From a virus: DNA of 36,660 bases. A program made the translations under genes and the position numbers. This document shows, piece after piece, positions 4,032 to 9,537 of this stretch; the stretch's first letter is position 1; the number at the start of each line of letters is the position of its first letter. Location of the stretch: positions 1 through 36,660 of the IMG/VR virus record IMGVR_UViG_3300032294_000821. One strand, given 5' to 3'. The notes under the pieces are model-generated. The model did no database searches. It was not told where the DNA came from and saw nothing but the letters and a program-made list of their open reading frames with translations.

Positions 4032-4400
4032 CTACCTAATATCTCCTTCAGACTGGAGGGGGGTAATAACTACCATGGACTTCCCGCCTTTAACGGGCTT
4101 TCCACGTATGACGGTGAGGCTCTCTACTTGAGAATCATCGTCAAATACTCCAGCATCTTGCAAAGCGTCTAAGACTGCCTTCACTCGGTTGTCTATATCC
4201 GTCTTGCGTTTATCTCTTGGATGTAGCGTAATGTGAACATCAAGCGGTTCAGCACCTAACTTCGGCACTCGGTACTCAATGACATACTCCGATACATCCT
4301 CCTTGAACTTACGTCCTTCTGCTGAAATGAACCTACGATGACCATTCGCTCTCCAATAGCTATTGATAGAGGGTGGGTAAGGTAGGCTCAATATCAACAT
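4032..4400 (-). CDS. rusA: RusA-family Holliday-junction resolvase
   Basis: From the ATG at 4400 the protein is 122 residues, a normal RusA length. It has the N-terminal PYPPSINSYWR motif (7-17), then TDIDNRVKAVLDALQDAGVF and DDSQV. Asp68, Asp70, Lys74 and Asp88/89 correspond to the catalytic acidic residues and lysine of RusA. The enzyme cuts four-way DNA junctions made by recombination or replication and so readies concatemers for packaging. The start is set by a TGATG overlap with the stop of the secreted-peptide gene. It fits with the exonuclease, annealing protein and SSB-like protein of the same operon. Confidence 0.9.
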   Translation of the reverse strand: MLILSLPYPPSINSYWRANGHRRFISAEGRKFKEDVSEYVIEYRVPKLGAEPLDVHITLHPRDKRKTDIDNRVKAVLDALQDAGVFDDDSQVESLTVIRGKPVKGGKSMVVITPLQSEGDIR

Positions 4401-4540
4401 CAGCAAGTAATCGGTTTAAATGGACCTTGTGTTGTTGTATCCCAGCAACACATACCGCCTCGTCCATCAGGTTGGCATTTAATTGCAGCAAACGTATTGA
4501 ATGATAAAGCAACGAAAAGAACTGCGACCAATGTTTTCAT
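4400..4540 (-). CDS. Small secreted Cys-rich peptide (46 aa)
   Basis: A 46-codon gene with an excellent AAGGGGATTAGT ribosome site before the ATG. The product starts MKTLVAVLFVALSFNTFAA, a short basic head and hydrophobic core with a likely signal-peptidase site after TFA. A mature part of about 28 residues with four cysteines (22, 31, 32, 46) follows. It should be exported, with disulfides possibly forming in the periplasm. It is embedded between the SSB-like and resolvase genes and overlaps the latter by TGATG. I do not recognise it. Periplasmic effects such as superinfection exclusion or enzyme inhibition are only possibilities. Confidence 0.7.
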   Translation of the reverse strand: MKTLVAVLFVALSFNTFAAIKCQPDGRGGMCCWDTTTQGPFKPITC

Positions 4541-4558: not shown

Positions 4559-4816
4559 TTAGAAAGGTACGTCTTGGTCATTACGAACTTCACGCTCAAT
4601 AGGACCACGTTCAGCACTAGACTGATAGGTGTCCAAAGACAGGCTGACCAAATGCCCGTATTGCGTATTCTTAATCCAGCCAGCTAACTTGTACATCTTG
4701 CCGTCTAGCATGACAGTACCCTTGTAGTCTGGGTGTGTGTCCTTCGTCTTCTTGTTTTGAAATAGCACCCCTTTGCCGTCTTGCGGTATAGATGCGCCTG
4801 ATTTTAAAATACTCAT
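4559..4816 (-). CDS. SSB-like single-stranded-DNA-binding protein candidate (85 aa)
   Basis: The 85-residue protein contains beta-rich stretches (DYKGTVMLDGKMYKLAGW, HLVSLSL) suggesting a small OB-type fold. It ends in NDQDVPF, which looks like the acidic tip (DDDIPF) by which bacterial SSB recruits repair and replication proteins. It is about half the length of E. coli SSB and otherwise not clearly of that family. A GGGAG ribosome site precedes the ATG, which overlaps the stop of the HTH reading frame by ATGA. The location beside the annealing protein, exonuclease and resolvase supports ssDNA binding. Confidence 0.6.
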   Translation of the reverse strand: MSILKSGASIPQDGKGVLFQNKKTKDTHPDYKGTVMLDGKMYKLAGWIKNTQYGHLVSLSLDTYQSSAERGPIEREVRNDQDVPF

Positions 4817-5001
4817 TTTCTTGCTCCCATTAAGTGATACTTCGCATACAGCGCACCAGACGGGCTACGCATATCTTCTTTGATAATGTTATGACCCTCT
4901 GACTTTAGGTCATACACTACTGCTGCTAACCGTGTGCAATTCATAAAGTCATACGCTTGCATCGGTGTTAGTCCGCCTTTTTCTCTTAGCCACCACAGCA
5001 C
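4813..5001 (-). CDS. Helix-turn-helix domain, probably reached by -1 frameshift from the annealing-protein gene
   Basis: From the GTG at 5001 this reading frame gives 62 residues that include TPMQAYDFMNCTRLAAVVYDL, a winged-HTH-like pattern seen in small phage proteins. The open frame extends upstream without a start codon, and the extension (LPLHLTQKEKVLWWL) reads as the natural first helix of the domain. The GTG start would cut that helix and has no good ribosome site. In the upstream gene the frames meet at an A AAA AAG slippery site at 5088-5082, so the domain may be made mainly as the C-terminal part of a 372-residue transframe protein. Alternatively it is a short independent protein. 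Confidence 0.6.
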   Translation of the reverse strand: MLWWLREKGGLTPMQAYDFMNCTRLAAVVYDLKSEGHNIIKEDMRSPSGALYAKYHLMGARK

Positions 5002-5057
5002 CTTTTCTTTTTGGGTTAGATGTAGCGGTAGGTTGGTTAGCTTTTGTTTTTCCTTGG

Positions 5058-5930
5058 CTACCCATTCTGCGTGGCTTCGTGCTTTTTTGTGTCTTCGGCG
5101 CTCCTGACGGTGGCAAACTTTGCGGTAAATTGTATGCGTTCATGGCTGCTGAGTCCGCTGGTGTTTTGCTCGTTAGCATTAGCCAATTCACGAAGTTTTT
5201 TATGCTTTTCCACATCATCTAGTTTCCTATTGTTAATAATCTTGTCGCACAGTTCAAACATTCCAGCCTTGTAATCCTCATAGCTTGGATACACAGCATA
5301 GGGTTGTTCCATGTTTGGCACCCATAACTTCCATGCTCCCTCGGGTGCAGCATTTAATTCAAACTCGTCCGATGGGATATCTTCCAGTGATACCACTTGT
5401 TGATTGGTCGGGTTCTGAAGCTGAAGTTCCACCCTCTGCGCTTGGGGAATGGTTTCCGTTTCACTCTCATCGAGCATACCCAGCCCACAGTGGGCGAGTA
5501 CAGTGCGCCTAATAGCCTTGGTTGTAGCTTTGAGTATGGCATTTGCGAGTACATCGCCTTTAAGCGAACCGATGGAGACTGCACCCTGATTCTCCGATAC
5601 ACGCCCATCTTTACCCGTACATCTCGTGGATACCAAATAGATGTCGTCAACCTTTTCACGGTGCGTAATTTGCGTTGATAGCCCATGTATCGCACATAGC
5701 TGTTGAGTGGCGCTGGCGTTTGCATAGAGAACCTCTTTCCCGTTTAGTCGTAATAAATCGAATGGTTTAGCCGCTGGGTCTAGTCCGGCTTGCTGGCAAC
5801 GGTAGTTGTAATACATTACCTTTTGCTCAGGCTTTAGTTTGGATAAGTCCCCATTGATAACCAATGACTCAATTACTGCTGGGTCTAAGGCAATCGGTGG
5901 TGCGGTGTTCTTTACTTGAATTTGCGACAT
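5058..5930 (-). CDS. Putative ssDNA-annealing recombinase (RecT/Rad52-like phage family)
   Basis: The start at 5930 gives 290 residues and has AAAGGGGATT placed before it; an in-frame ATG at 5969 lacks such a site. The N-terminal half contains LSKLKPEQKVMYYNYRC, GLDPAAKPFDLLRLNGKEVLY and LANAILKATTKAIRRTVLAHCGLGMLDE, blocks I associate with a common phage protein found beside exonucleases and RusA. The C-terminal third is variable and charged. The function is inferred: annealing of ssDNA exposed by the neighbouring exonuclease, as in lambda Red. A -1 slippery signal lies 8 codons before the stop. Family assignment is from memory. Confidence 0.65.
   Translation of the reverse strand: MSQIQVKNTAPPIALDPAVIESLVINGDLSKLKPEQKVMYYNYRCQQAGLDPAAKPFDLLRLNGKEVLYANASATQQLCAIHGLSTQITHREKVDDIYLVSTRCTGKDGRVSENQGAVSIGSLKGDVLANAILKATTKAIRRTVLAHCGLGMLDESETETIPQAQRVELQLQNPTNQQVVSLEDIPSDEFELNAAPEGAWKLWVPNMEQPYAVYPSYEDYKAGMFELCDKIINNRKLDDVEKHKKLRELANANEQNTSGLSSHERIQFTAKFATVRSAEDTKKHEATQNG
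5082..5105 (-). promoter_or_regulatory. Candidate programmed -1 frameshift signal
   Basis: Reading the minus strand, AGGAG (5105-5101) is followed after 12 bases by the heptamer A AAA AAG (5088-5082) in the zero frame of the annealing-protein gene (ACA AAA AAG). The same heptamer, with an upstream Shine-Dalgarno-like stimulator at similar spacing, drives frameshifting in E. coli dnaX. The -1 frame is open from here to 4813. No strong downstream stem was found by eye. Confidence 0.6.
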
Positions 5931-5965: not shown

Positions 5966-6862
5966 TCATTTAACCAAAAACCTTCTACTGCCTAACTGCT
6001 CAATTACAAACTTGTCATAAATATCGGGCATGGCTTGTTTGAATAGGTCTGCTGAGAATCGTTTAGAACTCTTAGCACTGCGCCACGTGGCTAGTATCTC
6101 GCCAGCCGGTGTCATCAAGTCTGAGGCGCTTTGCATATAGCCTTGAATAAATCCTTGCAACTTATCCTCTTGTTCCTCTAATGCCTTAATCTGCGTCTTA
6201 ATGTCCCGTAATTGCTGGCACATCACTTCCACGTTGCGGTTAGCAATCATGGTAGCCCCGTCATCTTTCTTCCACAGTAATCTAGCGTCCTCTGAGCTTT
6301 CAGGAAGTGGCGGGTTCTTCGCTTGGATATGACCCCACAGTTCAGCTAATGTCCTTATGAGCTGGTCTTTCTGCTCTTGGCTTACATTGACGGGAAAACA
6401 GCATAGCTCTTGCCCCCCAAATAAAACCCCTAAAACTACTTGGTCAACGTTATGCACAGTAGCTTCATGGATACATTGGGCTAGGTCTGCTGGCGGTATA
6501 AAGTCCGTACCATCATCGCCAAACTTATTGCGTACCCCAGCGTTGTAGTTCTTAACCTCTACAAGTACCTTTGCATCTGCTGAGATAAAGTCAAAGTGTG
6601 ATTTGATATAGGACTCTTTTGGGTGAGTTAAGGCATAGTCCGCTTCTTTCAGTTCCATGCCTAGCTTTTGCCCTACATAGCGTCCAATCGTATCCTGTAA
6701 GCGCTTGCCCCACTGCACAGCCTCAATATGGTCTAAGTTCTCGATTGTCTTTTCTCCAATCTTTTCCAGATAAACCTCACCAGCTCGACCATTGGCTATC
6801 TTACGGGAGTCCCCACTCCACAAAGCCGAGCGCCTATTCTCAGGGCTAAAGTCATCACTCAT
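5966..6862 (-). CDS. YqaJ/lambda-exonuclease-like recombination nuclease
   Basis: This 298-residue protein has IEAVQWGKRLQDTIG (46-60) followed by SHFDFISADAKVLVEVK (88-104). That gives the D-x(n)-E-x-K core of the PD-(D/E)XK nucleases used by phage YqaJ-type recombinases (Asp91, Glu102, Lys104). Residues about 215-245 form a coiled coil (MCQQLRDIKTQIKALEEQEDKL). It likely resects double-stranded DNA ends so that the annealing protein encoded next can pair the strands. The two genes meet with only a short gap, and the start overlaps the end of a tiny membrane-peptide frame. The divergent first motif lowers certainty slightly. Confidence 0.8.
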   Translation of the reverse strand: MSDDFSPENRRSALWSGDSRKIANGRAGEVYLEKIGEKTIENLDHIEAVQWGKRLQDTIGRYVGQKLGMELKEADYALTHPKESYIKSHFDFISADAKVLVEVKNYNAGVRNKFGDDGTDFIPPADLAQCIHEATVHNVDQVVLGVLFGGQELCCFPVNVSQEQKDQLIRTLAELWGHIQAKNPPLPESSEDARLLWKKDDGATMIANRNVEVMCQQLRDIKTQIKALEEQEDKLQGFIQGYMQSASDLMTPAGEILATWRSAKSSKRFSADLFKQAMPDIYDKFVIEQLGSRRFLVK

Positions 6863-8625: not shown

Positions 8626-9537
8626 TTAAGCCGCTTTTAGCTCTTCAGTGATACTATCCCCTAGCTCTTCATGCTTAACGAGCTTATCGAGGATTTTCTG
8701 AGCTTCAGCGCTTGCCTTTAGAATTGCCTTGCTATCCGCTTTTAATACCTTGAGCCATGAGCCCAAATAATTGGCGTGTTGGAGCTTACCGTCAATCCGC
8801 AAGTGAGCGCATAACATGGCGCTCCCGAGCTCCGCCACTAATTCCTCAAAAGCATAGGCATTGTCCCCAAATCGTTTAGATTTGCTGAAATCTCTATCTA
8901 GCCGGCTCTTGTGCCCCGTCCAATGGCTCAATTCATGTAAAACGGTACTGTAATAATCGGCATTGGTATTGAAAGCCGTTTTCTCGGGTAATTGGATAAA
9001 ATCAGAATCAGGAGCATAAAAAGCGCTATTCCCGCCATGCTTGATAGTGGCGCCAGTGCTAGCAATAAAGCGCTCACATTCCTCCAATGATTGAAATTCA
9101 TCAACCGTTACGGGCTCAATATCATCAACCGGCAAACCGTCAATAAAATCAGCATTAAACACGGTATAGGTTTTCAGCATTGGTATTACTTTTGAATCAT
9201 GTTGCATGGTTTCAGGATTGAGAGCCCCTTGAATGGTTAAGGGCTTATAGAAAATTACTTGTACGCCCTTACCCTTGGCTCGGCTGGTAACTTGAGCGCC
9301 CATTTTCTGAGCTTGGGCGTATGTCATCCAAATATTGCTAGAGCCATAAACGCCAGCACTTGAGAGCATGGTGAGCCAAAAGAAATTAGCGCCACGGTAA
9401 TAAGTGCCACTAGCCGGATTGTGTGGCGCTGACGTATCCACGTTAGACCATGGCTTAACCCATGGAGCTACGCCATTCTCTAATTGAGTAATTATGCTGT
9501 CAGTAATCTCTTGAGCTATGTTGCTGTTAGTTTTCAT
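8626..9537 (-). CDS. ardC: ArdC-like antirestriction protein
   Basis: This 303-residue protein has the two-part ArdC layout. The N-terminal ssDNA-binding region contains QLENGVAPWVKPW (18-30), YYRGANFFWL and the YAQAQKMGAQV block. The C-terminal zincin-like metallopeptidase has H-E-L-S-H at 201-205 and EELVAELGSAML (231-242) for the third ligand. ArdC proteins protect incoming DNA from host restriction, so a first-expressed place is sensible. It is the first gene of the leftward block, 47 bases after a predicted start point, with a GGGGGAT ribosome site. Confidence 0.92.
   Translation of the reverse strand: MKTNSNIAQEITDSIITQLENGVAPWVKPWSNVDTSAPHNPASGTYYRGANFFWLTMLSSAGVYGSSNIWMTYAQAQKMGAQVTSRAKGKGVQVIFYKPLTIQGALNPETMQHDSKVIPMLKTYTVFNADFIDGLPVDDIEPVTVDEFQSLEECERFIASTGATIKHGGNSAFYAPDSDFIQLPEKTAFNTNADYYSTVLHELSHWTGHKSRLDRDFSKSKRFGDNAYAFEELVAELGSAMLCAHLRIDGKLQHANYLGSWLKVLKADSKAILKASAEAQKILDKLVKHEELGDSITEELKAA

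Follow-up and report, generated by a model that had tools for sequence, protein, structure and literature searches.

A putative programmed -1 frameshift that adds a winged helix-turn-helix tail to phage single-strand annealing proteins

Programmed -1 ribosomal frameshifting very likely produces, in a family of Rad52-like single-strand annealing proteins (SSAPs) of phages, a minority form of the protein fused to a winged helix-turn-helix (wHTH) domain. We place the probability of this reading at roughly 0.9, and no protein product has been observed. The sequence elements involved, their conservation, the lack of a usable start for the HTH, the switch in coding periodicity, and a like arrangement behind a RecT core are all shown directly by the analysis.

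The window, meaning the whole stretch of DNA analysed, is a virus record of 36,660 bases. Its recombination module lies on the minus strand and runs in the order exonuclease, annealing protein, HTH frame, SSB-like protein, and RusA. A YqaJ/RecE-like exonuclease (5966-6862, minus strand; phrog_434, E 1.8e-43) is the upstream partner of the annealing gene. The Rad52-like SSAP occupies the zero frame at 5058-5930 (minus strand), with 290 aa from the ATG at 5930, or 303 aa if the upstream ATG at 5969 serves as start. The -1 frame extension, which would be read after slippage, spans 4813-5082 (minus strand) and consists of 89 codons and a TGA (4815-4813); it holds the winged helix-turn-helix domain HTH_39 (PF14090; 4828-5016, minus strand, E 2.3e-10). 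The ATG of the SSB-like gene (4559-4816, minus strand; phrog_18154, E 4.7e-12) overlaps this TGA as ATGA, and a RusA-like Holliday junction resolvase (4032-4406, minus strand) belongs to the same module. Elsewhere in the window, the open reading frame at 8626-9537 (minus strand) encodes what looks, from its translation alone, like an ArdC-type protein with the zinc-peptidase motif HELSH.

At the end of the annealing gene, the zero frame on the minus strand reads GTC AGG AGC GCC GAA GAC ACA AAA AAG CAC GAA GCC ACG CAG AAT GGG TAG. This contains A AAA AAG, a slippery heptamer of the X_XXY_YYZ form aligned to the zero frame (5082-5088, minus strand), an AGGAG that is a possible internal Shine-Dalgarno (SD) stimulator, 5' of the heptamer with a 12-nt spacer (5101-5105, minus strand; CGGAG in relative L004), and the zero-frame stop TAG as the eighth codon past the heptamer (5058-5060, minus strand). 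The -1 frame is already open 51 nt upstream of the heptamer and continues to the TGA at 4815-4813. A shift at the heptamer would give 283 + 89 = 372 aa, compared with 290 aa without it. A lone heptamer of this kind is not above chance, with 14 copies of A AAA AAG on both strands of the window against 15.4 expected, and homologues were therefore needed; it is conservation that lifts the signal above chance.

The identity of the annealing protein rests on relatives and on structure. The window protein has no usable match in Pfam or PHROGs, with none in Pfam at E<=1, while Rad52_Rad22 of Pfam is matched at E<=1 by 23 of 26 aligned family members (best 1.2e-5), the window protein not among them. 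Its predicted structure has a mean pLDDT of 73 and a pTM of 0.51. Human RAD52 entries lead a Foldseek search of the PDB with this model (E 3.5e-4), and VIA-align also places RAD52 first (Z 8.5 over 90 residues, rmsd 3.8), followed by ribosomal chains at Z 8.0-7.3. Because the ribosomal chains score so close behind RAD52, the fold match alone is moderate evidence. Matches of the model in a viral structure library include SAK3, Bet, and ERF annealing proteins. The zero-frame product looks like a complete annealing protein, its Rad52-like nature and its annealing activity being inferred from relatives and model.

In the -1 frame HTH_39 scores 40.6 bits against a curated cut-off of 21.3, phrog_4973 also matches, and the AlphaFold model of the tail (mean pLDDT 85) returns winged-helix matches in structure searches. 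The only ATG, GTG, or TTG of the window's -1 frame before the HTH or in its first ten codons is a GTG at 4999-5001 (minus strand). This is residue 29 of the modelled -1 segment and lies inside predicted helix 25-36, the first helix of the HTH, and its valine is coded GTT in the near relatives L003 and L004. Among 60 -1 junctions of the family, an ATG before the HTH is absent from 59, and in 32 the stretch from the 5' stop that bounds the -1 frame to the HTH contains no ATG, GTG, or TTG; in four, none occurs even within the first ten HTH codons. The -1 frame opens just 6 nt ahead of the heptamer in 15 of the 60. Weak starts are possible in relatives: many -1 loci have an ATG in frame 42 or 48 nt past the heptamer, and a single subclade has a TTG at -15 that is itself preceded at 1 nt by AAGGAGG. 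Separate HTH genes begin MSQN or MTQN at the domain edge, the pattern of a normal start. Where no annealing gene adjoins the HTH, an ATG stands near the domain start in 99 of 110 distinct loci; of the 11 that lack it, several are contig ends.

An initial sequence-only reading had described the in-frame A AAA AAG with AGGAG 12 nt upstream and a stop eight codons later, an HTH in an open -1 frame without a credible start whose lone GTG cuts the first helix, and products of 290 and 372 residues. All of this held: the first on the sequence itself, the second by the structure model and the GTT codons of the two relatives, and the third by count from the reading frames, no protein having been detected.

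HTH_39 also occurs in other settings. As a separate gene it is found no more than two genes away from replication or helicase-loader genes in four named phages (L232, L292, L297, and L299), whose host genera are Burkholderia, Pasteurella, Mannheimia, and Pseudomonas. In Rhizobium phage RHEph21 (L234, 1305-2213) a 302-aa protein carries it C-terminally, behind an unrelated N-terminal region.

Conservation was assessed in the window and in loci drawn from phage records, from viral contigs, and from one contig of a bacterial genome: 219 loci with the gene and 97 distinct junctions. Homologue searches gave the best 80 of 216, 160, 233, 417, and 579 relatives, so the set leans towards the queries. 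The HTH lies in the -1 frame in 61 of the 97 distinct junctions, and 60 of these 61 have an in-frame A AAA AAR in the last 60 nt; in the remaining one, L229 on the L004 contig, the heptamer is present behind a premature TAA. None of nine junctions with the HTH in the +1 frame has A AAA AAR anywhere in the gene. Eight of the nine have their own ATG, and the ninth, L157 on the L020 contig, seems to differ from L018 by an indel and has its heptamer after a premature stop. The heptamer is likewise missing near the stop in all 18 junctions without an adjacent HTH (two A6 heptamers occur elsewhere in the gene, in L012) and in nine junctions at contig edges, but genes of the last group are truncated. 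No in-frame SSAP-HTH fusion was found among the 97 distinct junctions. One clade of relatives carries the HTH as a gene with its own ATG that overlaps the SSAP end, most with an SD-like sequence, and lacks the heptamer; this clade is therefore read as a natural control.

A wider count over the enlarged set of loci accepted any of A, C, G, or T for the first triplet and covered the last 75 nt. By this count a slip site is present in 57 of 57 distinct Rad52-like -1 junctions without an ATG, one of which (L385) has C CCA AAG, and in three of three with an ATG. It is found in none of ten +1 junctions (L020 included), none of 22 without an adjacent HTH, and none of nine at contig edges. Among the 22 are L004, in which a premature stop precedes the HTH, and L128, which is a piece of a disrupted -1 locus. 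One of the three junctions with an ATG, L346, has C CCA AAA at -61 and was not counted as frameshifting, its HTH having an ATGA start. In L004/L229, with an in-frame TAA, and L020/L157, with an apparent upstream indel, the annealing gene is cut in single environmental contigs, by decay or assembly error.

The match between heptamer and frame should not be taken for many independent events, because the junctions are related by descent. Tree counts require only two to four changes for the -1 state, and an independent-contrast test, from which L011 and L012 were dropped, found only one to two independent pairs and had no power. For the trees the -1 state was assigned manually to L229 and to L157 (of the L020 contig), and rows at contig edges were omitted.

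Codon use at the slip site is narrow. The Lys-Lys pair is AAA AAG in 59 of 60 junctions and AAA AAA in one, and the preceding codon is ATA in 40, GCA in 14, and ACA in six; elsewhere in the same genes ATA makes up 11.4% of Ile codons, GCA 31.8% of Ala codons, and ACA 19.7% of Thr codons. None of 66 other Lys-Lys pairs of these genes reads A AAA AAG. Such tallies, for the A AAA AAR and C CCA AAR sets alike, merely restate the heptamer because the rows were picked for having it; the unselected evidence for its conservation is the 60/61 and 57/57 of the Rad52-like family and 14/17 of the RecT-core relatives described below. The sequence-only reading had proposed a check for synonymous constraint, made here as a codon comparison without a formal rate test: among columns with an invariant residue other than Met and Trp, none of 98 uses a single codon throughout, with one reaching 98%. 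One clade, with 26 distinct sequences, never varies at the first base of the heptamer, but nor does it at five of 30 other zero-frame wobble sites, and the strength of the conservation consequently rests on the whole family and not on that base alone.

The reading frame under selection changes at the junction. Variation upstream of the heptamer peaks at the zero-frame wobble position, most positions just past the heptamer are fixed, and from about 30 nt downstream variation peaks at the -1-frame wobble position. Within its own clade, the window differs from L003 past the zero-frame stop by 19 synonymous and 10 nonsynonymous codon changes in the -1 frame; the base differences number 6 at the first codon position, 8 at the second, and 21 at the third. 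In one clade (L106 and kin), 18 of 23 positions at 7-29 nt after the heptamer are invariant, GCCAG downstream of the heptamer is invariant in 27 of 27 aligned sequences, and no stem accounts for the invariance.

Stimulatory elements are less consistent; an upstream SD is optional at -1 frameshift sites, and a downstream stem-loop or pseudoknot, though frequent, is missing from some bacterial sites. The 12-nt spacer of the window falls inside the 6-17 nt range searched for stimulatory SD sequences (PMC4066793). Upstream of the heptamer an SD-like match of a 5-mer or better occurs in 28 of 60 Rad52-like -1 junctions, and a match as good is found, on average, at 35% of the gene's codon positions. 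The SD is thus not above background across the Rad52-like set and is prominent in the RecT-core cousins. A conserved 3' stem was not found: an RNAalifold consensus of 27 sequences had 0 pairs (pseudoknots being outside the model), and Rfam gave no match at the junction. Single folds 3' of the heptamer gave z of -0.7 and -0.5 in the window, -2.1 in L043, -1.9 in L074, -1.7 in L080, and -0.3 to -0.9 in L016, L007, and L017. A consensus fold of ten C CCA AAG sequences had 16 pairs, one changed on both sides, and no convincing element; within one subclade of the C CCA AAG type the pairing AGTCCC/GGGACT turns up repeatedly. Because there is neither a family-wide SD signal nor a conserved 3' stem, the efficiency of frameshifting in the window may be low. 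Frameshift-prone motifs without stimulators shift at 2 to 10 times background (PMC4066793, PMC5009743).

A like arrangement occurs with a different annealing core. In a phage record (MW202825.1, L233, marked UNVERIFIED_CONTAM) and in viral contigs, a RecT-family protein is followed by HTH_39 in the -1 frame, with an in-frame C CCA AAG or C CCA AAA. The RecT assignment was supported in the three proteins scanned by Pfam RecT (E 1.4e-6 to 3.2e-5) and phrog_561 (4e-29 to 1e-26). C CCA AAR is present in 14 of 17 distinct RecT-core -1 junctions without an ATG, and with the Rad52-like core of L385 these make 15, a set selected for the heptamer from which L346 was dropped. In 14 of the 15 the heptamer is C CCA AAG and holds no single-base run longer than three. 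The codon ahead of the CCA varies, with seven kinds in the set, and CCA itself makes up 55 of the 197 Pro codons found in the rest of these genes. Twelve of the 15 have GGAGG or AGGAGG at 9-10 nt 5' of the heptamer, a match that a median of 2.4% of other codon positions in the gene equal. The -1 frame of L236 and L237 has its stop directly next to the heptamer.

The RecT-core set also holds exceptions. Among 19 distinct -1 junctions, three (L416-L418) have neither an ATG nor a slip site and stand against a universal slip-site rule, and two (L303 and L304) have an ATGA start. In L416 (stop 1450) and in L417 and L418 (stop 2507), a CTG overlapping the stop is a candidate HTH start. The G GGA AAG of L303 and L304 was not counted as frameshifting, the HTH there having its ATGA start. 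C CCA AAG also occurs near the stop in six of 39 RecT-core genes without an HTH and in one of seven at contig edges, and near relatives of the HTH-less genes, L244 and L250, read C CCA AAC. In L240, L243, L249, L253, L254, and L291, which have C CCA AAG near the RecT stop and no HTH, the -1 frame is open for about 60 codons counted from the heptamer; these sites may be chance or relics. On balance the RecT-core set supports frameshifting, less cleanly than the Rad52-like set does. The two cores do not align (hhalign probability 1.8%, with shallow profiles), and a C-terminal domain is common to both annealing proteins (hhalign 98.8% over 63 columns, L233 1662-2510 against window 5061-5930). A shared C-terminal domain behind non-aligning cores suggests that cores have been swapped in front of a common tail.

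The interpretation first proposed for the window, a -1 frameshift fusing the annealing protein to an HTH, is supported by this conservation of heptamer and frame relation in homologues. Its comparison of AGGAG with the dnaX element held in part, the motif being present in the window and not general in the Rad52-like family, and the likeness to dnaX is incomplete, with no conserved 3' stem-loop found and a shifted product that is longer, unlike that of E. coli dnaX. Two kinds of homologue had been named as refuting it. One, the HTH as a separate gene with its own start, does exist in the clade described above, but the heptamer is absent there. The other, a -1 frame that persists after the heptamer is lost, has no example among the Rad52-like junctions and three among those with a RecT core (L416-L418).

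In the proposed mechanism, most ribosomes would end translation with the Rad52-like annealing protein of 290 aa. In some ribosomes, the P- and A-site lysyl-tRNAs would re-pair one base back on A AAA AAG, perhaps assisted by pairing of AGGAG with 16S rRNA, and the slipped ribosomes would read 89 more codons to give the 372-aa protein with a winged-helix DNA-binding tail. Slippage in the host, its efficiency, and the function of the tail are all inferred. As a guess, annealing proteins form rings or filaments, so that minority fused subunits would yield mixed oligomers with a few duplex-DNA-binding heads, which might place the annealing complex at a particular site or structure. The same HTH is found as a separate gene at the same place in some relatives, which suggests that both parts act together and that covalent linkage is useful, not required.

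Other explanations were weighed against frameshifting. The HTH could be a separate, translationally coupled gene started inside the overlap, at GTG in the window and at TTG or ATG in relatives. In favour of this are the clade with the HTH under its own ATG overlapping the SSAP end, the ATGA overlaps of L303, L304, and L346, which likewise yield a -1 relation, the in-frame ATG at +42 or +48 in many -1 loci, and L416-L418, with a -1 HTH and neither slip site nor ATG. However, over half of the 60 junctions offer no ATG, GTG, or TTG before the domain and a few offer none in its first ten codons either, the GTG of the window sits within helix 1 and is GTT in L003 and L004, and an internal start leaves unexplained both the conserved heptamer and its absence where a +1 HTH has its own ATG. 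We consider this explanation highly improbable.

Transcriptional slippage at the A6 run, in which the mRNA loses or gains a base and the fusion is read without ribosomal slippage, is less credible still. Six A in a row can slip, and L066 has seven, but A6 is short for RNA polymerase slippage and the final G is kept in 59 of 60 junctions, though longer runs would favour slippage. Ribosomal rather than transcriptional slippage fits because there are two versions of the slip site, one of them (C CCA AAR) mostly without a run over three. Finally, an indel could have broken what was once an in-frame SSAP-HTH gene, through decay of the fusion or as a sequencing error, and L004/L229 and L020/L157 do carry apparent breaks elsewhere. 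This can for practical purposes be set aside, given the same frame relation in 61 distinct junctions, the lack of any in-frame fusion among 97, and the codon-position pattern of selection on the -1 frame between the window and L003.

Programmed -1 frameshifting itself is known, and several systems resemble the one proposed here. E. coli dnaX (tau/gamma) has the same heptamer A AAA AAG (PMC5009743), an upstream SD (PMC5600365), and two forms of a DNA-metabolism protein, but the dnaX shift shortens the protein (PMC4066793), whereas that of the window would add a domain, and dnaX needs a 3' stem-loop (from the title of a reference cited in PMC4066793), where no conserved stem was found at the annealing-gene junctions. 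Phage frameshift genes described in PMC5009743 are structural (tail chaperones, coat and tail proteins). The phage tail chaperone G/GT and capsid Ig-like extensions are likewise minority proteins of tailed phages, C-terminally extended by frameshift (PMC5009743), yet they are structural genes with other products and no role in DNA recombination. Transposases of the IS1 and IS3 families join parts of a DNA recombination enzyme by a -1 shift, most commonly at A AAA AAG or A AAA AAA (PMC4066793); there the fusion is needed for transposition, whereas the unshifted annealing product here looks complete. FseA of a mobile integrative element is a frameshift-made transcription activator controlling excision of the element (PMC5009743), but the shift is +1 and an annealing protein is not involved. 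Where phage Rad52-like or RecT annealing proteins are encoded next to an exonuclease, the operon position and the fold or family matches are shared, but no frameshifted DNA-binding tail was found for them in the literature searched. That search, including relevant sections of PMC5009743, PMC4066793, PMC3711429, PMC3945230, and PMC13313380, returned no frameshifted annealing protein, with the supplementary gene lists of two frameshift surveys and most subscription papers outside its scope. The annealing gene, the fusion product, and its recurrence with two annealing cores seem new, although the mechanism is not.

A bolder reading, which could go either way when all of its parts are taken jointly, is that phage annealing proteins repeatedly carry, as a module, a targeting head whose dose is set by frameshifting. 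The Rad52-like and RecT cores, themselves unrelated, would share a C-terminal domain, a slip site drawn from the most efficient bacterial -1 heptamers, and a -1 winged-helix tail, and a set minority of DNA-binding subunits in mixed oligomers would target the annealing complex, much as two frameshift-made forms set the composition of the clamp loader.

If the frameshift is confirmed, natural SSAP-wHTH fusions would be available to try in recombineering. It would also serve as a warning that gene callers miss frameshifted tails, as in MW202825.1, where the HTH is annotated only as a truncated gene. For the phages themselves, it would mean that they set the ratio of two forms of an annealing protein through a conserved frameshift in a recombination gene.
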